IMG/VR virus record: IMGVR_UViG_3300025131_000346
Coordinates: 1-26,653 of that record
Source of the DNA: a virus
Length of the DNA stretch: 26,653 bases
Direction: 5' to 3' (one strand)
Shown: piece after piece, positions 9,503-21,106 of the stretch
Layout: the number at the start of each line of letters is the position of its first letter
Numbering within the stretch: the first letter of the stretch is position 1
Program-made: the position numbers and the translations under genes
Notes under the pieces: generated by a model
What the model saw: the letters and a program-made list of their open reading frames with translations, nothing else
What the model was told of the DNA's origin: nothing
Databases searched by the model: none

Positions 9503-10591
9503 TTAAGTATTAAGTCCCATTCCAGGTGTTAACGAGAAGGTGCTTTCTCGTTTCTCTAAAGAGGCCCAACTACGGAAATCTTTCATATAAATATCATACC
9601 CAGGATCCATATTATGACCTCCGCTTATCACGGATTCCCATCCTGCTAAGTTATCTCTCTTAATTATATCCATAGAATCAAATGCTTTGAAATCTCCAGT
9701 TCTAATCTCCTCTAAATTTAATACAATTTTAAGTCTTCTTGGAAGGAGAGTCTCAACATCGTACCCCGCAACTTCATCCCAATCTAACCTGTAATCTGTA
9801 CAAATACATGGAACATCTTGATATAGTAATCCATGTCTCAATCTTATTATAGGTGGACCGTATAGAGGGTTAGTAGAGTGATTAGTAACACTACTTCTAA
9901 TTATACTTATCCAATATACAATAACATCAATTAATTTAGCTCTTGCCTGAGCATCGTAGGCTACGAACTCCGAAACTGTTTCGGATACTGCAACCTCTTT
10001 AGTTAAAGTTTGATCATTAAGAACATTCTCTCTATATTCTTGATAAGTGGGAACCTCCGACTTATCTCTACCAGAATTCATCAAAGCATCAACCCAAAGT
10101 TTATGTGCAAGTTGTAACCTCTCCTCAACACTCAAAGACTTATTTCGCATATTCATTCTAATAGATGATTGGAAAGCTTCAGTACCTAGATAATATTTTC
10201 CCATATAATCAATTGCGGCAGTCCCTTTTTCTCCATCATCAGTAAAACTAAACGCTGGGGAGGAAAATTTCATTCTTTCATCTTCTGGAAGAGCGTCTGG
10301 GCCAGAAAGATAGTCTTTAGGTTGATATGGATTTAAATCTATTAAATGTGGAAGTGTAATATTAAAAGATACATTTATTCTTCTAGAATCCGCTCCTAAG
10401 TATGTGTACAAATTACTAGATCTAGCAAGAAGAGAGTGTTTTTTGTACCGAGCTTTCTTAGATTCGGTAATTTTCGGATTTTCAAAAAAGGGCAACCCTA
10501 CTTTGTGGTAGTCAGACCCCTCATTTGGATTGGGGAAATAAAAAGATAGGTTAGCTCTTTCTGGTAATTCTCTATCAACAACGGGAGACAT
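9503..10591 (-). CDS. Baseplate tube-initiator protein, gp48/gp54-like (main part of a split gene)
   Basis: A 362-residue frame beginning at an internal ATG (MSPVVDREL) inside the left copy of the 128-bp duplication. Two stretches recall T4 gp48/gp54, the proteins that cap the hub and start tail-tube polymerisation: residues about 62-85 (LYTYLGADSRRINVSFNITL), and the C-terminal strand region with GYDVETLLPRRLKIVLNLEE. The position between tape measure and gp53 agrees with this. Removing one 128-bp copy restores a 390-aa protein starting at 10803 whose first 28 residues (GLLGSLAAGVGAAAAEAAKV included) are an Ala/Gly-rich helix. Family assignment is moderate, being based on pattern and synteny rather than a strong motif. 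Confidence 0.7.
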   Translation of the reverse strand: MSPVVDRELPERANLSFYFPNPNEGSDYHKVGLPFFENPKITESKKARYKKHSLLARSSNLYTYLGADSRRINVSFNITLPHLIDLNPYQPKDYLSGPDALPEDERMKFSSPAFSFTDDGEKGTAAIDYMGKYYLGTEAFQSSIRMNMRNKSLSVEERLQLAHKLWVDALMNSGRDKSEVPTYQEYRENVLNDQTLTKEVAVSETVSEFVAYDAQARAKLIDVIVYWISIIRSSVTNHSTNPLYGPPIIRLRHGLLYQDVPCICTDYRLDWDEVAGYDVETLLPRRLKIVLNLEEIRTGDFKAFDSMDIIKRDNLAGWESVISGGHNMDPGYDIYMKDFRSWASLEKRESTFSLTPGMGLNT

Positions 10592-10767
10592 GGGAATACT
10601 CTCTACTGCGACCTTTGCCGCTTCCGCTGCTGCTGCTCCTCAGACCCCTCATTTGGATTGGGGAAATAAAAAGATAGGTTAGCTCTTTCTGGTAATTCTC
10701 TATCAACAACGGGAGACATGGGAATACTCTCTATTGCGACCTTTGCCGCTTCCGCTGCTGCTGCTCC
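10512..10767. repeat. 128-bp tandem duplication with one mismatch, breaking the gp48/54-like gene
   Basis: Bases 10512-10639 and 10640-10767 are direct head-to-tail copies (offset 128) differing only at 10606 (c) versus 10734 (t). On the minus strand this difference is a Val (GTA) versus Ile (ATA) codon. Flanks diverge immediately: 10511 differs from 10639, and 10768 from 10640. As 128 is not divisible by three, the gene starting at 10803 goes out of frame on entering the left copy and ends at 10603. Confidence 0.97.
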
Positions 10768-10803
10768 AACCCCTGCTGCTAATGAACCTAGTAATCCTGC
10801 CAT
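10603..10803 (-). pseudogene. Truncated N-terminus of the gp48/54-like gene
   Basis: This 66-residue frame starts with ATG 10803 behind a good ribosome site (TAGGAGAAT). It carries the same MSPVVDRELPERANLSFYF segment as the following frame, then shifts at the duplication junction into a nonsense tail (SEEQQQRKRQRSQ). It is the genuine 5' end of the gp48/54-like gene rather than an independent gene: the native start, ribosome site and Ala-rich first helix are here, while the rest of the protein is encoded at 9503-10591. If the duplication is a joining error, the true gene is a single 390-aa frame from 10803 to 9503. Confidence 0.85.
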
Positions 10804-10821
10804 AATATTCTCCTATATGTA

Positions 10822-12660
10822 TTAGAGTCCCTTAACACTCCTAGGATTGCCTCTAGGCAATTTCAGTCTATCTGAATTTCCTTCAGCAGTTAGATCAACT
10901 AAAACTTCCATATTTTCACTCAAGGCATTCATAAATCCTTGCTCATCTCGGGCTGTGAGTCCCAAGATTTGATCCATACTTGTTGCAAGGAATTCATCCG
11001 TTAAACCTAAAAATCCCGAACCCGTATCTCTAGGATCAATAGTTTTTGCGTCTATAGAAGCTGTACTCTCCGCTATCTGTCCAGTTAATGCGTCTATGCT
11101 GTTCCACTCATCTCTCCAAGCATCCGTCTGAGAATTAATACTAGCTTGAATATCAAGTAAAGGATTTAATGCTCTAGTTACTTGAGTACCTATTTTATCC
11201 TGCTCTAAAGCATAAGCTCCCATATTAGCTCCTGCATCCTCAAGAGCAATTAAAGCTTCTGTTAATAAGGAATTAGTCATATCTGCTGCTGAGTCACCAG
11301 CACCCATATATTGACCTACCCCTACGGCACCAGCACCTAGGAGACCCGCTCCACCTAATGCAAGTAGGGATAACCCTCCAGTAGGAATAGCTAATACCGC
11401 AGCAGTAATTGCCGCTACTCCCCCTCCTATAAGCATGTTCTTAAATCCAGTAGAGGCATTTTCTATAAATTCTTTTAAAGTTGTATACAATCCACCAAGT
11501 CCTGCCACTACATTTAGGATTACAGGAATTAATATATTCGTAAAAACATTCTTTATTTCAAGAATTTTAGTCCAAAGTACTTCACTTACCGTATAAGTTA
11601 CATTTACCACTGTATGCATAAAGCTATCAAATACTTTTTCTACTGGTGCTAACTGCTTAAAAAATCTAGCTATGTTCCCTACCAACCATTGTGCTATAGA
11701 AGACATAGTTTTAGCCCAAGATTTTAATTGAGGTTCCATACTCATTACGAATACTTTAAGCGGGTTCCATACTTCTGACCATAAAGTAGTCATAAGATCA
11801 GCAAACTTGTGTTGAGCTTCCGCATTCACATCTGTACCTTCTGCTAATCTCTCCATAGCAGGAATAAGTAACTGGGCAGCAGGATCTAATTGACTAGTGA
11901 ATGCTCCAAACTGTAAGGAACTATCTCCAACAAATCCTTTGAGAGTCTTTCCAGCAGTCATTATTGCCTCTTTAAGAATAGCAAAGGTACGCACCTCATC
12001 CCCCCTGTGCTGCTCTAATCTAGTTCTAACATCTCCAATACCTAGCGCAGTTAAAGTTTGCAAACCTTTAGTGCCCGTATTGACAATCAGATTCATCATC
12101 TTTCCCAAAGATTCAGTATCAAATGCAGCCCCTAAAGTGGCTTGAAGTTTTACTATCGAAGACCCAATACTTTTGGTCATTCCTGCAATACCAAGAAATA
12201 CCTCTTGAGCTTTTAATGTATCAAGAGCTTTTACCAGCTTATCTGTAGAGATACCATAAATGTATCCAACCTCTCTGGTTTCAGTAGCTAATTCGTTCGT
12301 AGCCTCAATAGATAATCTTCCCATAACTTGCATACGAGCAAATTGTTTAATGGTTCCTTTATAGGCTGTACCTGTTAACATCTGCTGGTTAACTAACTTA
12401 CCTACGGCTGCTGCATTCCCCCTCAACCCCTTATCAAGCATCATAATGCCTGTAGTGTATTGCTGCTCAATGGTGCCTCTAAGTCCAGTAATAGATGGAC
12501 CCATCTTCTTCAGACCATCAGTAAAACTTAACCCTAAAGCGGCTGATGCTTTTTCAGCTTTGCCAGTAAATTCATAGGAGTCCTTAATGGCACCAGTTAA
12601 CTGGTCCATTGCTCTAAGAAGAGGTTCTGCCGCTGCTAATACAATCCCCGTTGCTACCAT
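10822..12660 (-). CDS. Tail tape measure protein
   Basis: This 612-residue protein is mostly helical, Ala/Leu/Met-rich and lacks catalytic motifs. It has two hydrophobic stretches, about 372-392 (NVFTNILIPVILNVVAGLGG) and 409-447 (rich in Gly, Ala and Leu), as tape measures commonly do. It lies between tail-assembly genes and the tube-initiator/hub genes, the usual tape-measure place. The length is close to that of T4 gp29 (590 aa), so a tail of roughly T4 length is expected if the usual proportionality of about 1.5 angstrom per residue holds. Tape measures fill the tube, set its length and enter the cell envelope on injection. ATG 12660 directly follows the stop of the 129-aa gene (TAAATG). 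Confidence 0.82.
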   Translation of the reverse strand: MVATGIVLAAAEPLLRAMDQLTGAIKDSYEFTGKAEKASAALGLSFTDGLKKMGPSITGLRGTIEQQYTTGIMMLDKGLRGNAAAVGKLVNQQMLTGTAYKGTIKQFARMQVMGRLSIEATNELATETREVGYIYGISTDKLVKALDTLKAQEVFLGIAGMTKSIGSSIVKLQATLGAAFDTESLGKMMNLIVNTGTKGLQTLTALGIGDVRTRLEQHRGDEVRTFAILKEAIMTAGKTLKGFVGDSSLQFGAFTSQLDPAAQLLIPAMERLAEGTDVNAEAQHKFADLMTTLWSEVWNPLKVFVMSMEPQLKSWAKTMSSIAQWLVGNIARFFKQLAPVEKVFDSFMHTVVNVTYTVSEVLWTKILEIKNVFTNILIPVILNVVAGLGGLYTTLKEFIENASTGFKNMLIGGGVAAITAAVLAIPTGGLSLLALGGAGLLGAGAVGVGQYMGAGDSAADMTNSLLTEALIALEDAGANMGAYALEQDKIGTQVTRALNPLLDIQASINSQTDAWRDEWNSIDALTGQIAESTASIDAKTIDPRDTGSGFLGLTDEFLATSMDQILGLTARDEQGFMNALSENMEVLVDLTAEGNSDRLKLPRGNPRSVKGL

Positions 12661-14152: not shown

Positions 14153-15134
14153 TATAGCACCTCACTTTATTAAAGACTACATTACCCGCAACTTCAGCGA
14201 TAAAGGTAAACTATCTGCTGCTGGAAGCGAGTTTATCATGGAGTCTGTGTTCGTAGATAACGACTGGAAAAGGCACATGAGCATTAATATAGATAGTGGT
14301 CTATGGCAATGCTTTAAGACTGGACGATCCGGTAATTTCGTGAGACTCTACGCAGAGATAGAAAATCTCACTTATTTTCGCGCCGAGCAGCAAATTATAT
14401 ATAAAAACTTCGACTACCAAGATGTATGCGAAGAACATCAGGTGCTTAAAGATCCCAAGTATGACGAAATTGATACCTCTAAGCTAGAGCCAATCACAAT
14501 CAATTCCGTAGGCAGCGAGGATAAATTAATGCAGGATGCTTGGTGCTTTTTGTTTGGGAGGAATTTGTTTGATGTAGTGCATGAAGAGAAAGATCCCTTC
14601 TACCTATGCAGAACGGGCAGATTTAAGAATAGAATCATCATCCCCTTCAAAAACCTGGATACAGTCTATTATTTCCAGGGCAGAGCAATTTACGATGAGA
14701 AGCCTAAGTATCTAAACCCCTCTACAGACATAGCTGCCAAACCCTCAGATATTCTGTATCCTTACGATGAGGATGCTGATTTCGTAGTAATTTGTGAAGG
14801 ACCCCTCGACGCTAAATCTCTACAACTTCAAGGCGTAAATGCTACAGCTACTATTGGAAGCTCGATTAGCCGTAGACAAGCAGAGATACTCTCTACCTTT
14901 AAAGGAGAGCTAGTCCTGGGTTATGACAATGACGCTGCGGGAGAAAGAGGTATCAGTAAATTTGATAGATTAAGAAAAGAACTCAGGATGGACATCTTTT
15001 CCGTGTGCCCTCCTCCATCAGGGTTTAAAGACTGGAATGAGGCTCATGTTGCAGGAGAAGACCTACATCAATGGATTGCAGAGAAAGCTACCTTCTACGA
15101 TTTCGAATATCAGATCAAAGCTCAGATGGATTAA
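14145..15134 (+). CDS. DNA primase, T4 gp61-like TOPRIM protein with degenerate zinc domain
   Basis: This 329-residue protein has the TOPRIM primase core: NRIIIPFKN...YYFQGRAI (about 162-181), CEGPLDA with Glu218 and Asp222, LGYDNDAAGERG with the Asp261-x-Asp263 metal pair, and KDWNEA (295-300). The FQGRA and downstream EGP.D spacing follows T4 gp61, which makes RNA primers for lagging-strand synthesis with the gp41 helicase. The N-terminal region (about 28-75, with INIDSGLWQCFKTGRSGN) has the shape of a primase zinc-binding domain but retains only one cysteine (Cys56) of the usual four. Overall length is close to gp61 (342 aa). The gene ends 2 nt from the convergent 325-aa gene. Confidence 0.87.
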   Translation: MYIIAPHFIKDYITRNFSDKGKLSAAGSEFIMESVFVDNDWKRHMSINIDSGLWQCFKTGRSGNFVRLYAEIENLTYFRAEQQIIYKNFDYQDVCEEHQVLKDPKYDEIDTSKLEPITINSVGSEDKLMQDAWCFLFGRNLFDVVHEEKDPFYLCRTGRFKNRIIIPFKNLDTVYYFQGRAIYDEKPKYLNPSTDIAAKPSDILYPYDEDADFVVICEGPLDAKSLQLQGVNATATIGSSISRRQAEILSTFKGELVLGYDNDAAGERGISKFDRLRKELRMDIFSVCPPPSGFKDWNEAHVAGEDLHQWIAEKATFYDFEYQIKAQMD

Positions 15135-15136
15135 TT

Positions 15137-16114
15137 TTAGCTGATCGTGAAGTAAAGAGGCTTAGTTGTGATAGTTTCTCCTAAAAAGGTATAACTAGCT
15201 GTTAAAGCGAAAGTGCCCACACCTCCACCTTGTAATGCTGCGGTAGTAAGCCAGTTATCGACATTAAAACTATAAATCATAGTATTATCAGAAGTTATTT
15301 GATCCACATTCCTGTAATCAAATACAGTCTCTAGAGAAGGAAGGCTCGTTGTCCCCTCATTTACTTTTTGAATCTTAAAGAACGCATTATCAATTCCGTA
15401 ACTTTCAATTATATTTCTTACTGAAGAATCTAGATCTCTGTTCTGAACTGTGAGATCAGTAGTAACCTTCAGGTTTACAATAGATCCTAAAGTTACATGC
15501 TTATTTACGAGTCTGTTGCTAGTGCTAAGAAGAAGTGGCTGAGTAAGAGAGACCCAAGCATCATTATCAAGTTTAAATTCATTTATAAATAATTGATACT
15601 CGGATGTAGCAGTCATCTTGACAGTCCAAACATCAATATAGTCTTGGACTGAAGTGGCATCGTTTGCTATGGTAGTTCCTTTGAAAAAGGCAGAATGCAT
15701 ATTGTAGCCACCAGACAAGGCAATTGAACCATCTAAAACTGCAACATATTGCCCCGTCCCAGTTTGATAAATTCCACTGGCATATGGTTCTGGCCCATAT
15801 AAAGTATCTGCCATCCAATCAGTATTTTCGCTAGTTGTTCTTCCTGGTTGTCCGTCATGCTCAGTTCCAGCCTCCCCAGAAACACCAAAGCTCATAAGAA
15901 CAGAACTAATTGGTTGATCACTCTTTATTATTCCATCAGAGTTTACTATCGTATCGGGAGTTGCATTAGCGAGTTTTGTAAAAACGGTACATGCACTTAT
16001 ATCGTAAGGATCTTGGTACTGACCATCATTCAAAAACATAGCTCTTAGAGCCACTTTACCAGCTACACTTGGCCTGTTAAATCTTTCAGTTAGTTCTACT
16101 CCGTTTAATTGCAT
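15137..16114 (-). CDS. Probable virion protein, 325 aa, unknown family
   Basis: A 325-residue, beta-rich, acidic protein with low Lys content, the style of a phage structural protein. The N-terminus reads MQLNGVELTERFNRPS then KVALRAMFLNDGQYQDPYDI, and the C-terminal part (about 200-325) is Thr/Ser/Asn-rich with alternating hydrophobic residues. No membrane segment, signal peptide or catalytic motif is visible. It starts 29 bp inside the frameshifted extension of the chaperone gene, with GAGAAG as a ribosome site, so it is probably made from the same transcript. A neck, tail-completion or decoration protein would fit, but I cannot choose among them. Confidence 0.7.
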   Translation of the reverse strand: MQLNGVELTERFNRPSVAGKVALRAMFLNDGQYQDPYDISACTVFTKLANATPDTIVNSDGIIKSDQPISSVLMSFGVSGEAGTEHDGQPGRTTSENTDWMADTLYGPEPYASGIYQTGTGQYVAVLDGSIALSGGYNMHSAFFKGTTIANDATSVQDYIDVWTVKMTATSEYQLFINEFKLDNDAWVSLTQPLLLSTSNRLVNKHVTLGSIVNLKVTTDLTVQNRDLDSSVRNIIESYGIDNAFFKIQKVNEGTTSLPSLETVFDYRNVDQITSDNTMIYSFNVDNWLTTAALQGGGVGTFALTASYTFLGETITTKPLYFTIS

Positions 16115-17011
16115 TATCTTCTCGCTCTAATTCATCTTTCAGTAATTTAAGGAATACGGTCCTTTCTGTTCGGGTCATTCCTTTTACATCCGAATAGGTG
16201 AAATGAGCCCTCTTTACTAATATATAGGCTTCTAGAAGAAGATTGTCTACATCAATTACTTCTTCTAGCTCACATCGAAAAAATTTGCGTCGATTGGGAG
16301 GTCTACTACCGAAACCTCCTTGCAATTATTGCACCCAAATTTAATTTTGGTATCGACACCAAATTCAGTCTTCATAGAGTTTAGAATAGTTTTCATGTCC
16401 CTAATCGGTAATTTATCCAAAACAGCAGCAATTATAGATTTATCTGTCTGACCATCAATTTCTACAACAAACCTCCAAATTTCATCCAAAGTTTTTCCAA
16501 CATCCGTTAATAATTTTTCATCTCTAACCCTTGGAAGAGTTACTTTACAGGTTTTATTTATAGAGGGGAGAGTAACTTCTATAGGATCAACAAAATCGTC
16601 TGGAACTGGGTTCACATTTAACTCAGATAATTTGACAGTGGTAGGAATCTCTTCCTTACAGAATGAACAAATCAATAAAGTGTTATAATCATCTCCATAA
16701 GAAATTTCTCTTAGTTTCATTATAAGATATAATTTATCTATTGAAAGCAGATCTGAAATATTAATATTAGTTGAACACCTTTGTAAAATAATATTAACAG
16801 GATCTTGCTCCTTTTTTGCATTAACGATCTGTTTTTCATCCTCAAAGGTCATCGGCCTCAGAGTGATGGGAGCCGCAGGATCCTCTAGCGTATAAACCTT
16901 ATTCTCTGACGGAAGATCTACCTCAATAGAAGAGTCTACAGGTAAATCTTTAAGAATCTCTTCTACGATTTTTTCTTTAGCTGCACTAACAGCAGGACTA
17001 GTTTTTTGCAT
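16086..17011 (-). CDS. Long form of the tail-assembly chaperone made by -1 frameshift
   Basis: The protein follows the 248-aa frame for 244 codons, shifts -1 at the slippery site and continues through a second frame to a stop at 16086, giving 308 residues. The added 64 residues begin F-R-C-E-L-E-E-V-I and contain a helical, charged segment with MTRTERTVFLKLLKDELERE, a M.rxERxxFlxLlxxE pattern of the kind seen in T-domains of tail-assembly chaperones. The extension has no ATG or GTG start of its own behind a ribosome site; its upstream open frame could only begin at TTG 16325, so frameshift expression is the best explanation. By analogy with lambda gpG/gpGT, the short and long forms would chaperone the tape measure. 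Confidence 0.75.
16265..17011 (-). CDS. Tail-assembly chaperone, gp26-like, with zinc ribbon (short form)
   Basis: A 248-residue protein resembling the T4 gp26-type baseplate/tail-assembly family: LRPMTFEDEKQIVNA (about 51-65), LLSIDKLYLIMKLREISYG (about 88-106) and two CxxC pairs, CSFC (115-118) and CNNC (227-230), which should form one zinc ribbon. The N-terminal 45 residues are Pro/Glu-rich linker. It would act in the cytoplasm during tail initiation, not necessarily ending up in the virion. ATG 17011 has a GGAG ribosome site. The stop at 16265 lies only 4 codons past the slippery heptamer, and the -1 frame continues beyond it. In T4 this gene lies near the hub genes; here it is separated from them by a replication gene cluster. 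Confidence 0.75.
   Translation of the reverse strand: MQKTSPAVSAAKEKIVEEILKDLPVDSSIEVDLPSENKVYTLEDPAAPITLRPMTFEDEKQIVNAKKEQDPVNIILQRCSTNINISDLLSIDKLYLIMKLREISYGDDYNTLLICSFCKEEIPTTVKLSELNVNPVPDDFVDPIEVTLPSINKTCKVTLPRVRDEKLLTDVGKTLDEIWRFVVEIDGQTDKSIIAAVLDKLPIRDMKTILNSMKTEFGVDTKIKFGCNNCKEVSVVDLPIDANFFDVS
16280..16286 (-). other. Slippery heptamer A_AAT_TTT (programmed -1 frameshift site)
   Basis: Read on the minus strand in the zero frame, the bases are GCA AAT TTT TTC, so the heptamer A_AAT_TTT has the canonical X_XXY_YYZ layout in the correct frame. It is followed by the zero-frame stop at 16265-16267. In the -1 frame the same bases read AAA TTT TTT CGA and stay open for 64 codons. An inverted repeat GGAGGT...ACCTCC (11-nt loop) lies about 10 nt upstream of the heptamer; no strong stem is obvious downstream. 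Confidence 0.8.
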
Positions 17012-17037
17012 TTTATAATCTCCAAACGGGTATGTAA

Positions 17038-17054
17038 TATACTATTATAGTATA
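17038..17054. promoter_or_regulatory. Perfect palindromic bidirectional promoter or operator
   Basis: Seventeen bases form a perfect inverted repeat with 8-bp arms around a central T (TATACTAT t ATAGTATA). Reading toward the minus-strand chaperone gene it contains the -10 consensus TATAAT, about 33 bp before ATG 17011. Reading toward plus it contains TATTAT, ending 6 bp before GTG 17055, so a transcript would begin at or beside the start codon. The 11-mer TATTATAGTAT (17043-17053) recurs at 26605-26615. No good -35 hexamer is seen for either direction. Confidence 0.55.
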
Positions 17055-18422
17055 GTGAAAATACATATAAATACTGCAAATTCCAGGATAGAGACGGATA
17101 ATCCTAAATTATTTCAAGCACTCTATGATTTATATTCATTCAAAGTGCCTGGAGCCGAATATTCTATGGCATACAAGCGTAGAAATTGGGATGGAAAGCA
17201 GCACTTTATATCTAGGTCAGGTATATTCAGAACAGGTTTATTACCTAGATTGTTAAAAGATCTAGAAAAAATTGAATGTACTCCAGAACTAGAATATGCT
17301 TACCAAAAACAAATTACGCATAGTTCTTATGATATCGAACAATTTTCCTTTTATGATTATCAAGAAAAACTTATCAAAAAAGCTTTAGGTTGTCAGAGAG
17401 GGATAGTTAAGTCCCCCACAGGCTCAGGCAAAACCTTAATTATGGCTGCAATAGCCAAAGCTTGGACTAACAAAAAAATGGTACTATTGTTCAATGCGAA
17501 ACAACTCCTTACACAAACTTATAAATTTTTTACTGATACCTGCGGAATTGATAATGTTGGCCTATGTTATGGTGAAGGTTATCAGTATGGAGATATTATG
17601 CTTTGTACGGTCCAAAGTATTGAAAAGATTCTGGATACTCATCTTAAAGAGGCTGAAGTTCTAATGGTAGATGAGTGTCATGAGTTTGCTAACGGAAAAA
17701 CAACTTTGGCTGCCATACGATCTTTTCCTAATGCAAAAATTCGTTTAGGATTTACTGCTACTCCTCCTAAGGACAAGATACCTAGATATAATCTAGAGGG
17801 GGCACTCGGAGAGGTTTGGGAAATAGTTGAAACTTCAGATCTAGTGGAGTCAGGAAAATTGGCAAGACCTATCATTCAATTAGTTGACAGATCATATTCA
17901 GCAAGTGGGGCTGATGAGGATTTATCCTATTTAGATGTGTATGAGCAGTATATCGTTGATAACGACCTTAGAAACAAAATAATAAGAGAAATAGTAGATG
18001 ATATTAAAAACAAACATTCTAGAGCCCGTATCCTTATACTTACCAAATCGCTTGATCATGGAAGAGCCTTGGAAAACTTACTTGGAAAATCAAGCAAATT
18101 TCTTGTGGGAGGGGACTCCCTTGGAGAGCGGTATAAGGCTATATCTCACTTTAGGGGAAGAAAAGCGTCTAGCATCCTTATTGGGACGAGAATCCTCCAG
18201 ACTGGTATAAATATAGAGGAAATAACGCACTTTATTAATGCCAGAGGTATGAAGTCGGAGATAGCTACCATCCAAGCGTTAGGAAGGGCTCTTCGCAAAT
18301 CAAAAGGAAAAACCGAGGTTTTTGTGTATGATTTCCTAGATAAGGAAAAATACCTGCGTGAACATTCTTTGGAGCGCAAAAAACACTACGAAAATGAAGG
18401 ACATGAGGTTAGAATACTATGA
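17055..18422 (+). CDS. uvsW: UvsW-like superfamily 2 helicase
   Basis: This 455-residue SF2 helicase has all core motifs: Walker A PTGSGKT (121-127), DECH (206-209), TAT in LGFTATPP (235-237), motif V TRILQTGINIEEI (378-390) and motif VI QALGRALRKSKGK (407-419). The N-terminal 70 residues (RRNWDGKQHFISRSG) align with the small domain of T4 UvsW, where a YGNWDG sequence sits at the same distance from the start. T4 UvsW unwinds R-loops and branched DNA, switching replication from origin to recombination-dependent mode. The start is GTG at 17055; an in-frame stop at 17016 leaves no ATG upstream and no ribosome site is visible, so the mRNA may be leaderless. Length is somewhat below T4's 503 aa. 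Confidence 0.93.
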   Translation: MKIHINTANSRIETDNPKLFQALYDLYSFKVPGAEYSMAYKRRNWDGKQHFISRSGIFRTGLLPRLLKDLEKIECTPELEYAYQKQITHSSYDIEQFSFYDYQEKLIKKALGCQRGIVKSPTGSGKTLIMAAIAKAWTNKKMVLLFNAKQLLTQTYKFFTDTCGIDNVGLCYGEGYQYGDIMLCTVQSIEKILDTHLKEAEVLMVDECHEFANGKTTLAAIRSFPNAKIRLGFTATPPKDKIPRYNLEGALGEVWEIVETSDLVESGKLARPIIQLVDRSYSASGADEDLSYLDVYEQYIVDNDLRNKIIREIVDDIKNKHSRARILILTKSLDHGRALENLLGKSSKFLVGGDSLGERYKAISHFRGRKASSILIGTRILQTGINIEEITHFINARGMKSEIATIQALGRALRKSKGKTEVFVYDFLDKEKYLREHSLERKKHYENEGHEVRIL

Positions 18423-18646
18423 GAACATCCCACGATATTAGAAAAAAAGAGACGGAAATCTCTCCTGAAGAGAAAAAGCAATTAGAGACAATTATAGAAG
18501 AAATTAAATTTATTTTAAAATCTCCTAAAGTGAACGAAGATACGCTAAACCAACTGAAAAATGTAATAACTTCCGCAACGAATCTTAAAGAGAATTACAC
18601 CTTAAGAATCATACGGAAGTTAAAACAAAATCATATGCTCGACTAG
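18419..18646 (+). CDS. Small helical protein, UvsW.1-like by position
   Basis: A 75-residue charged, helical protein (EEKKQLETIIEEIKFILKS, then NLKENYTLRIIRKLKQNHML) overlapping the uvsW stop by 4 nt, so translation is coupled. In T4 a 76-residue protein, UvsW.1, directly follows UvsW, and the two were once thought to be one protein. Size, position and helical make-up suggest the same role as a UvsW partner, but I cannot confirm homology from residues alone. The stop codon shares CTAG with the convergent neighbour. Confidence 0.65.
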   Translation: MRTSHDIRKKETEISPEEKKQLETIIEEIKFILKSPKVNEDTLNQLKNVITSATNLKENYTLRIIRKLKQNHMLD

Positions 18647-19120: not shown

Positions 19121-21106
19121 TTAATTTATTCTTCTTACACTAAAGCTGGTTCCTATCCTAGATGCGGCACTATTGCTCCCCCCCACTTCAACATGGCAAA
19201 GAAGCTTAACTCCAGCAGCTAAGTATCCCATCCACTCTATAACTTGGTCCTGAGGGTCAATATTCTGTCTAATAACTTGTACTCTTTGAGTTAGATCTGT
19301 GTCAACCCATCCAGGGGAACCTGTATTGGTCGCTAGTGTTAGTGTAATAGTCGTTGGGCTGGCATCAACCAGAAAACTTGCCTGGACACTAACATGATAA
19401 TATCCAGCGTTTACTATATTAAAATATGGATAAGTACTATCCCAATTAATCTCTTCAGAATCTATCGCTGTAACCGCTACTGTAGGATCGGATGGACTCT
19501 CAGCAACCCCAGAACCTATATAATAATCATTTTGTTCAGCATCTGTACCAGCAACAGTTATTCTTAAATAAGCCCAAGGAGCGGGAACGGGACAAGCACT
19601 TACTGTAATTGCAGATACTGTAGCAGCGGGAGCAGTACCTCCTAAAGACTTTGTACTTGATACATTAGCCCAAGTAGCGGCATCATTCCAGTCTGAATAA
19701 CCTGTTGCTGAAGGAAACAAGTCCGTACTATACGCAGCGTCCCAGTTAGAGGCTCCAGCATCTACTGTAGTTTTTGTACTATTCCAACCTGCAAAGCCTG
19801 TAGCAGAAGGAACTTGGGCCTCTACAGTGACTACTCTACCATCAATAGTAGTAGTAGAAGTTTCAACTGAGCCTGAAAATGCATTCAAGGCATCCGTACT
19901 AGTATCAAGAGTGGCTGTACTAGCCTCTACGGTACTAGAAAAACCTTCAAAAACAGATGATGCATTTACTAGAGATCCCGAACCATCAAAAACAAAAGTA
20001 CTAGTATTTCCAATAGTAGTAGAAGCCTGAGTTACATAATCCCTAGTTCTGTCCCAGTCAGAAAATCCTACTGCTGAAGGAACTTGACCCTCTACAGTAC
20101 CTACTCTAGTATCAATAGCAGTAATATTCGAATCAAGAGTGGCTGTACTAGTATCCACGGAGCCCGAAAATGCATTCAAGGCATCCGTACTAGTATCAAG
20201 AATGGCTGTACTAGTTTCAACTGAGCCAGAAAAACCTTCAAAAACAGATGATGCATTTACTAGAGATCCTGAACCATCAAAAACAAAAGTACTAGTATTT
20301 CCAATAGTAGTAGAAGCCTGAGTTACATAATCCCTGGTTCTATCCCAGTCAGAAAAGCCTACAGCAGAAGGACCTCCTATAGCAACAACATCGGCAGAAG
20401 TGGTTAAAATATTAGCTCTATCGCCATAAATGAGGTTCCAGTTAGCAAAGCCTACAGCAGAAGGAACTTGGCCTTCTACAGTACCTACTCTAGTATCAAT
20501 AGCAGTAATATCCGTATCAAGAGTGGCTGTACTAGTTTCTACCGAACCAGAAAATGCATTCAAGGCATCCGTACTAGTATCAAGATCAACTACACTAGTA
20601 TCAACTGAACCTGACCAAACATTCAAGGCATCAGTACTAGTATCAAGATCAACTACACTAGTATCGACTGAGCCAGAAAATGCATTCAAGGCATCCGTAC
20701 TAGTATCAAGAGTGGCTGTACTAGTTTCAACTGAGCCAGAAAATGCATTTAAAGTAGCAGATGTACTATTCCAGTTTTCAAACCCTGCTGCGGAGGGATC
20801 TCCTCCAGCATCCCAAGCATTAGAGGAGTCCTTTACTCTATCCCTAGATTGATTCCAATCATCGGAACTAGCAGCTACTACAGTAGAGGTGTCATTCCAG
20901 TTTTCAAACCCTGCCGCTGAAGGATCTCCCCCCTCATCCCAAGTAGCTGAAGTATCCTCCACAGCACTAACAACATTTCTAATATTTCTAGTAAGGGTAC
21001 TACTAGCAATAGTATCCCCTACAAGCCCAACCTTTAGACCTGATGGATCTCCACTATCGGGATCTAAATCTATTAAGACCAGATTTGTTGCTGAAAGCTC
21101 TGCCAT
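19121..21106 (-). CDS. Repeat-rich fibre protein with C1q/TNF-like tip
   Basis: A 661-residue protein. Residues 1-480 are Ser/Thr/Ala/Asp-rich and repetitive: PSAxGFxxW or a close variant occurs seven times (starting near 62, 104, 215, 246, 343, 433, 465); four tandem 21-residue repeats (AFSGSVETSTATLDTSTDALN type) span 121-204; a 97-residue unit occurs twice (246-342 and 343-439). Twenty-one equals three heptads, which favours a trimeric coiled shaft. The C-terminal 150 residues, with YFNIVNAGYYHVSVQASFL and LAAGVKLLCHVEVGG, look like a C1q/TNF jelly-roll tip that often binds surface glycans or trimerises the shaft. Likely a head or tail fibre; position upstream of small membrane genes does not decide which. 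ATG 21106 has AAGGA upstream. Confidence 0.8.
   Translation of the reverse strand: MAELSATNLVLIDLDPDSGDPSGLKVGLVGDTIASSTLTRNIRNVVSAVEDTSATWDEGGDPSAAGFENWNDTSTVVAASSDDWNQSRDRVKDSSNAWDAGGDPSAAGFENWNSTSATLNAFSGSVETSTATLDTSTDALNAFSGSVDTSVVDLDTSTDALNVWSGSVDTSVVDLDTSTDALNAFSGSVETSTATLDTDITAIDTRVGTVEGQVPSAVGFANWNLIYGDRANILTTSADVVAIGGPSAVGFSDWDRTRDYVTQASTTIGNTSTFVFDGSGSLVNASSVFEGFSGSVETSTAILDTSTDALNAFSGSVDTSTATLDSNITAIDTRVGTVEGQVPSAVGFSDWDRTRDYVTQASTTIGNTSTFVFDGSGSLVNASSVFEGFSSTVEASTATLDTSTDALNAFSGSVETSTTTIDGRVVTVEAQVPSATGFAGWNSTKTTVDAGASNWDAAYSTDLFPSATGYSDWNDAATWANVSSTKSLGGTAPAATVSAITVSACPVPAPWAYLRITVAGTDAEQNDYYIGSGVAESPSDPTVAVTAIDSEEINWDSTYPYFNIVNAGYYHVSVQASFLVDASPTTITLTLATNTGSPGWVDTDLTQRVQVIRQNIDPQDQVIEWMGYLAAGVKLLCHVEVGGSNSAASRIGTSFSVRRIN
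19790..20371. repeat. Two tandem 291-bp (97-codon) units in the fibre gene
   Basis: Bases 20081-20371 and 19790-20080 encode near-identical 97-residue modules beginning PSAVGFSDWDRTRDYVTQAS; the offset is exactly 291 bp. Within the unit, base differences are few and often third-position, so the duplication is recent or kept similar by recombination. Confidence 0.85.
20495..20746. repeat. Four tandem 63-bp (21-codon) repeats in the fibre gene
   Basis: Four 63-bp units (252 bp) encode FSGSV(E/D)TS-type 21-residue repeats at residues 121-204. The CTAGTATCAAG-type DNA core recurs here and in the adjacent 291-bp units, which would allow in-frame length change by slippage or recombination. Confidence 0.85.

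Follow-up and report, generated by a model that had tools for sequence, protein, structure and literature searches.

A probable lambda G/GT-type frameshift in a gp26-like tail assembly chaperone gene, at a slip site conserved among T4-like and environmental phages

A gp26-like gene on the minus strand of DNA from a marine relative of phage T4 very probably encodes a tail assembly chaperone of the lambda G/GT type, in which -1 frameshifting close to the end of the reading frame would generate two forms of the same protein, one short and one long. The gene lies within a stretch of 26,653 nucleotides (positions 1 to 26,653 of the IMG/VR record IMGVR_UViG_3300025131_000346), which was analysed in its entirety and is referred to below as the window. 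This reading of the gene is favoured because a slip site is conserved at the homologous position in its relatives, the -1 frame beyond that site is under selection, no ATG is available to that frame in the window's clade, the resulting C-terminal domain is homologous to that of gp51, and the best match to the predicted fold of the short form is the tail assembly chaperone of HK97. Chaperones of this frameshifted kind are already known, and the more interesting part is the wider family to which the gene belongs, whose members appear to have arrived at -1 shifted, +1 shifted and duplicated arrangements.

The zero-frame open reading frame (17011..16265, minus strand) encodes 248 amino acids followed by TAG; its ATG at 17011 is preceded by GGAG, a likely ribosome-binding site that can be read directly from the DNA (17023..17020, minus strand), and its product is the candidate short form (TAC-N, the analogue of lambda gpG). 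At its 3' end the minus strand reads CCA ATC GAC GCA AAT TTT TTC GAT GTG AGC TAG, so that the protein terminates in DANFFDVS, with the stop codon at 16267..16265 being the one that the proposed shift would bypass. Two overlapping heptamers are found there in the appropriate phase: A_AAT_TTT (16286..16280, minus strand), four codons ahead of the TAG, and T_TTT_TTC (16283..16277, minus strand), beginning three bases later, and a slip at either would produce one and the same peptide, in which ANFF is joined to RCELEE. The -1 frame remains open from there for 63 codons up to its own stop at 16088..16086 (the extension as a whole spanning 16277..16086, minus strand), and encodes a candidate chaperone C-terminal domain resembling lambda T and gp51. 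Joining residue 245 of the zero frame (at the end of DANFF) to those 63 residues gives a fusion of 308 amino acids, in agreement with the 248- and 308-residue forms proposed in a first-pass annotation of the same DNA; that annotation had, however, begun the -1 region at 16325, which is merely the first TTG following an upstream stop in that frame, the -1 part proper beginning at 16277. The two forms are predicted to differ in their tryptic peptides, with EVSVVDLPIDANFFR being unique to the fusion and EVSVVDLPIDANFFDVS forming the end of the short form.

Downstream of the chaperone gene, an open reading frame of 325 amino acids without a notable family match (15137..16114, minus strand, taken from the open reading frame list) shares its first 29 bases, from the ATG onward, with the end of the -1 frame. 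The presumed client, a candidate tape measure protein of 612 amino acids (10822..12660, minus strand), is weakly identified through phrog_4070 (E 0.0082), and lies approximately 3.4 kb beyond the chaperone gene rather than adjoining it. A search of phage records at the DNA level with positions 14500-18500 of the window returned no match, and a scan of genome contigs with the window protein returned no bacterial relative. Two further features of the same DNA were observed in passing. A stretch within the short open reading frame at 10603-10803, MSPVVDRELPERANLSFYFPNPNEGS, is identical to the start of a 362-residue frame at 9503-10591, the copy having arisen either by duplication in place or as an artefact of assembly; and a 661-residue protein encoded at 19121-21106, which contains many near-identical repeats (such as ALNAFSGSVETSTATLDTSTD and PSAVGFSDWDRTRDYV), has the appearance of a repetitive protein of the tail fibre or virion surface.

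The assignment of the short form to the gp26 family, made initially from the letters of the sequence, was upheld by profile searches, in which it matched PF12322 (T4_baseplate) with an E-value of 5.3e-18 and 66 bits against a cut-off of 24.5, and phrog_150 (baseplate hub) with an E-value of 9e-23. The zinc ribbon that had been proposed at the same time is likewise recognizable, as a ribbon-like region with two CxxC pairs at residues 115/118 and 227/230. The direct match of the -1 part to phrog_634 (baseplate hub assembly catalyst, gp51) is weak (E 0.0056), as is that of its profile to T4 gp51 taken alone (E 0.025). The same profile aligns to the gp51 reading frames of T4-like phages with an hhalign probability of 95.9 (E 5e-9), and a profile of those T4-like domains in turn matches the C-terminus of T4 gp51 (E 2.6e-4); because both match this intermediate set, the window's C-terminal domain and the C-terminus of T4 gp51 are considered homologous.

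In T4 itself, gp51 is a paralogue of gp26 (PF12322, E 2e-53; BLASTP to gp26, E 2e-6), within which the phrog_634 domain is fused in the same frame. A different arrangement is found in P-SSM2, S-PM2, HTVC008M, Cr30, phiM12, KVP40 and phiM9, in all seven of which that domain occupies the -1 frame across the end of gp26, with an in-phase TTTTTTC, TTTTTTT or TTTTTTG positioned just upstream of the gp26 stop. The gene order in HTVC008M and phiM12 is tail tube, gp26, -1 reading frame, small reading frame and tape measure, and that in SP-15 is tail tube, gp26 and tape measure. On sequence grounds, T4 would express its short and long forms from two separate, duplicated genes (26 and 51), where its relatives and the window phage would employ a single gene and a slip. 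A review of T4 counts both gp26 and gp51 among the hub assembly chaperones, and describes gp51 as an essential protein of unknown function that is absent from the particle (PMC3004832).

Relatives of the gene were gathered from IMG/VR and from phage records in two sets, the first containing 88 sequences and the second, which is T4-like, containing 80. An in-phase T_TTT_TTY is present at the homologous place in 83 of the 88 (67 with TTTTTTC and 16 with TTTTTTT) and, no more than two codons from the gp26 stop, in all 80 of the T4-like loci (79 with TTTTTTC and one with TTTTTTT). The two sets pooled, which extend down to approximately 20-30% protein identity and within whose clades kinship prevents the counts from representing independent trials, retain it in 156 of 161 distinct relatives. 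Elsewhere in the related genes, a TTTTTT run occurs in this phase 10 times and in the other two phases 48 times. The residue ahead of the two phenylalanines varies (N, S, D, A, G or Y) and its codon ends in T in 156 of 156 cases; free synonymous codon choice would be expected to produce the run in no more than roughly 35-50% of genes, as calculated from the T-ending fraction of Asn, Asp or Ser codons (0.57-0.76) multiplied by the TTT fraction of Phe codons (0.64). Given the rarity of in-phase runs elsewhere and this codon expectation, the conservation of T_TTT_TTY exceeds chance. The first-pass annotation had placed the slip at A_AAT_TTT, and that heptamer is indeed in phase in the window, as it is in 49 of the 83 first-set relatives; the remaining 34, however, retain T_TTT_TTY without it, the preceding codon being AGT, TCT, GAT, GCT or GGT. 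The tRNA-Phe can re-pair fully on UUU at both sites of T_TTT_TTC, whereas slippage at A_AAT_TTT would require the Asn-tRNA to re-pair from AAU to AAA. Since T_TTT_TTC is kept in relatives that lack the other heptamer, it is taken as the conserved and most likely slip site, and slippage at A_AAT_TTT instead is regarded as unlikely.

A further question is whether the -1 frame is translated as an extension at all, rather than as a small gene in its own right, translated either from a dedicated start or by ribosomes that re-initiate once gp26 has terminated. That the frame is coding is clear, as among 19 close relatives its pN/pS past the zero-frame stop is 0.305 and it contains no stop in 19 x 45 codons (the other two frames containing 133 and 67), and the domain is under purifying selection. 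An independent gene is in fact what the records of P-SSM2, S-PM2, KVP40, phiM12 and HTVC008M annotate, under the name of gene 51, and an ATG is found near the junction in 46 of 79 distinct T4-like loci, where coupled re-initiation could supply a small gp51. Against this, 30 of those 79 loci possess no start codon, the heptamer is retained even beside an ATG, the start annotated in HTVC008M must truncate the conserved beginning of the domain, and in T4 the domain belongs to one fused protein. In the window's own clade, 36 of 42 distinct sequences offer no ATG, GTG or TTG able to start the domain, six offer GTG or TTG alone, and none offers ATG, an outcome opposite to the loss of the heptamer together with gain of an independent start that had been named beforehand as the counter-evidence to look for, and in accord with the earlier judgement that the domain has no credible start of its own. 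Because the clade is devoid of ATG, and because the sole candidate in the window (the TTG at 16325) lacks an upstream ribosome-binding site, an independent start is unlikely there, and a separate small gene in place of a frameshift is considered quite improbable overall. The six-T run is also the kind of place where insertion and deletion errors arise, and the two frames might represent one reading frame broken by a sequencing error or by decay of a fused gene; an identical frame break, with the zero-frame stop retained, is nevertheless present in more than 150 distinct sequences, as well as in finished genomes of isolates, and error or decay is ruled out by that conservation.

Structure prediction offers moderate support for a TAC-like fold in the short form. 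Its AlphaFold2 model (pLDDT 88) matches gp26-type proteins among viral models and finds no significant match in the PDB with Foldseek; in a VIA-align comparison, the highest-ranking chain comes from the HK97 tail assembly chaperone (2ob9), with a Z of 5.8 (the next row scoring 2.7), a match that was not searched for by name and a Z below the level that would suffice alone. The alignment covers residues 25-105 of the short form, with 73 residues superimposed at an rmsd of 3.3 and 8% sequence identity. The C-terminal domain is modelled mostly as two long helices (pLDDT 87), and its fold search returned non-significant matches alone, a few of which bear the name of a tail assembly chaperone or tape measure chaperone, including the tape measure chaperone of Citrobacter phage Moogle.

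A stimulatory hairpin probably follows the slip site. In the window, the candidate (16268..16232, minus strand) comprises 10 + 4 base pairs, starts 8 nucleotides after T_TTT_TTC, has a predicted energy of -13.5 kcal/mol, and carries the zero-frame stop codon within its 5' arm. Folding scores were computed against dinucleotide shuffles, and for the window alone (96 nucleotides folded) the z of -1.33 is unexceptional. Across 34 relatives in the window's clade, the mean z is -1.7 and -1.8 for 45-nucleotide segments beginning at +3 or +7 after the heptamer, and across 38 T4-like sequences it is -2.5 and -2.1 at the corresponding segments; in both groups it is near 0 in segments upstream and further downstream. 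The individual pairs are not conserved in the window's clade, where covariation does not clearly exceed that of shuffles, and RNAalifold recovered no consensus fold after the slip either in that clade or in the T4-like set. A T4-like subset displays 44 double-changed cells against 16 in shuffles, a count biased by the fact that the subset was hand-picked largely for the hairpin. In a more distant clade (loci L051-L090), the folding signal lies approximately 60 nucleotides downstream, away from the slip. The zero frame of that same clade continues for 7-23 codons past the slip, in a tail beginning FFFPRRK.

From these features we infer slippage, its rate and its role in assembly as follows. The majority of ribosomes would halt at the TAG and release the 248-residue short form (TAC-N), which corresponds to lambda gpG and T4 gp26. 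A minority, probably aided by the hairpin, would slip back one base at T_TTT_TTC, bypass the TAG by reading on in the -1 frame, and complete the 308-residue long form (TAC-NC), which corresponds to lambda gpGT and T4 gp51. On the model of lambda, many short and few long copies would then coat the tape measure protein, the additional helical domain of the long form would recruit tube subunits, and both forms would depart before completion of the tail.

Lambda gpG and gpGT belong to a different sequence family from the window gene and use a different slip site, and to our knowledge gpG lacks a region comparable to that containing the two CxxC pairs. The HK97 chaperone, although it is the best structural match to the short form, is about half the length of the window protein, which possesses the extra ribbon region. 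T4 gp26 and gp51, in contrast, belong to the same families as the window gene (the short form being a PF12322 protein and the long one containing the C-terminal domain of gp51).

The first-pass annotation had expressed doubt as to whether a frameshift had been described for this group, and that doubt is not borne out by the literature. According to two papers, both citing Vladimirov et al. 2022 (Virology 566:9-15), the name tail assembly chaperone has been given to genes of the gp26/gp51 type in T4-like phages (PMC10885494, PMC12846349), some T4-like phages dispense with the frameshift and carry one short gene plus one long, fused gene (PMC10885494), and poly-T -1 signals are present in T4-like chaperone genes (PMC12846349). 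Myoviruses of the Vandenendeviridae and Andersonviridae have also been reported to encode a chaperone with a conserved GTTTTT -1 signal (PMC12846349), and by that description they resemble the window phage in combining a myovirus chaperone, a poly-T -1 slip and a -1 frame that is open family-wide. The frameshift itself, as proposed initially, gains support from the slip site conservation, the frame selection, the gp51 homology and the HK97 match reported above.

What appears to be new, at least to us, is a switch in the direction of the shift within the family. Five relatives that lack the -1 site (SP-15, LIS04, GXN1, LR756508 and locus L083) carry the domain in the +1 frame, as does RM378, and further scans yielded a divergent branch of 42 distinct loci without a -1 site (L006, L007, L008, L083, L114 and L211-L263), those six included, in 40 of which the domain is in the +1 frame. 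Either at the homologous Phe codons or close to them, these loci mostly display TTT_CGN (16 loci) or TTT_TGG (13 loci), with SP-15 and LIS04 harboring other codons there. In both motifs UUU is followed by C or U, on which tRNA-Phe can re-pair one base forward, and it is from the motif that the position of the shift in this branch would be placed there. A start codon for the domain is missing from 18 of the 40 loci, and at least one ATG, GTG or TTG lies within reach in the remainder. The +1 domain aligns to the window's -1 domain with an hhalign probability of 95.8 (E 8e-9) and to the T4-like domain with an E-value of 1e-6. On balance, it seems reasonably likely that a single family shifts at the same Phe-Phe codons in either direction, the window's group and T4-like phages by -1 at T_TTT_TTY, and a branch that contains Streptococcus phage GXN1, Rhodothermus phage RM378 and many environmental phages by +1 at TTT_CGN or TTT_TGG, with T4 having replaced the shift by gene duplication. 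Open papers, in which this point was not specifically targeted, yielded no text on such a -1/+1 switch in the gp26/gp51 family.

These observations would give proteins of the gp26 and gp51 type a single reading, as a tail assembly chaperone in its short version and its long one. What has been annotated as an independent 'gp51' gene in cyanophages, in Pelagibacter and Sinorhizobium phages and in Vibrio phage KVP40 (loci L124, L125, L126, L127 and L129 among the T4-like phages considered here) is then probably the C-terminal end of a gp26 frameshift product. With three solutions (a -1 shift, a +1 shift and a gene duplication) apparently reached at one homologous spot, the evolution of recoding in this family would become testable.
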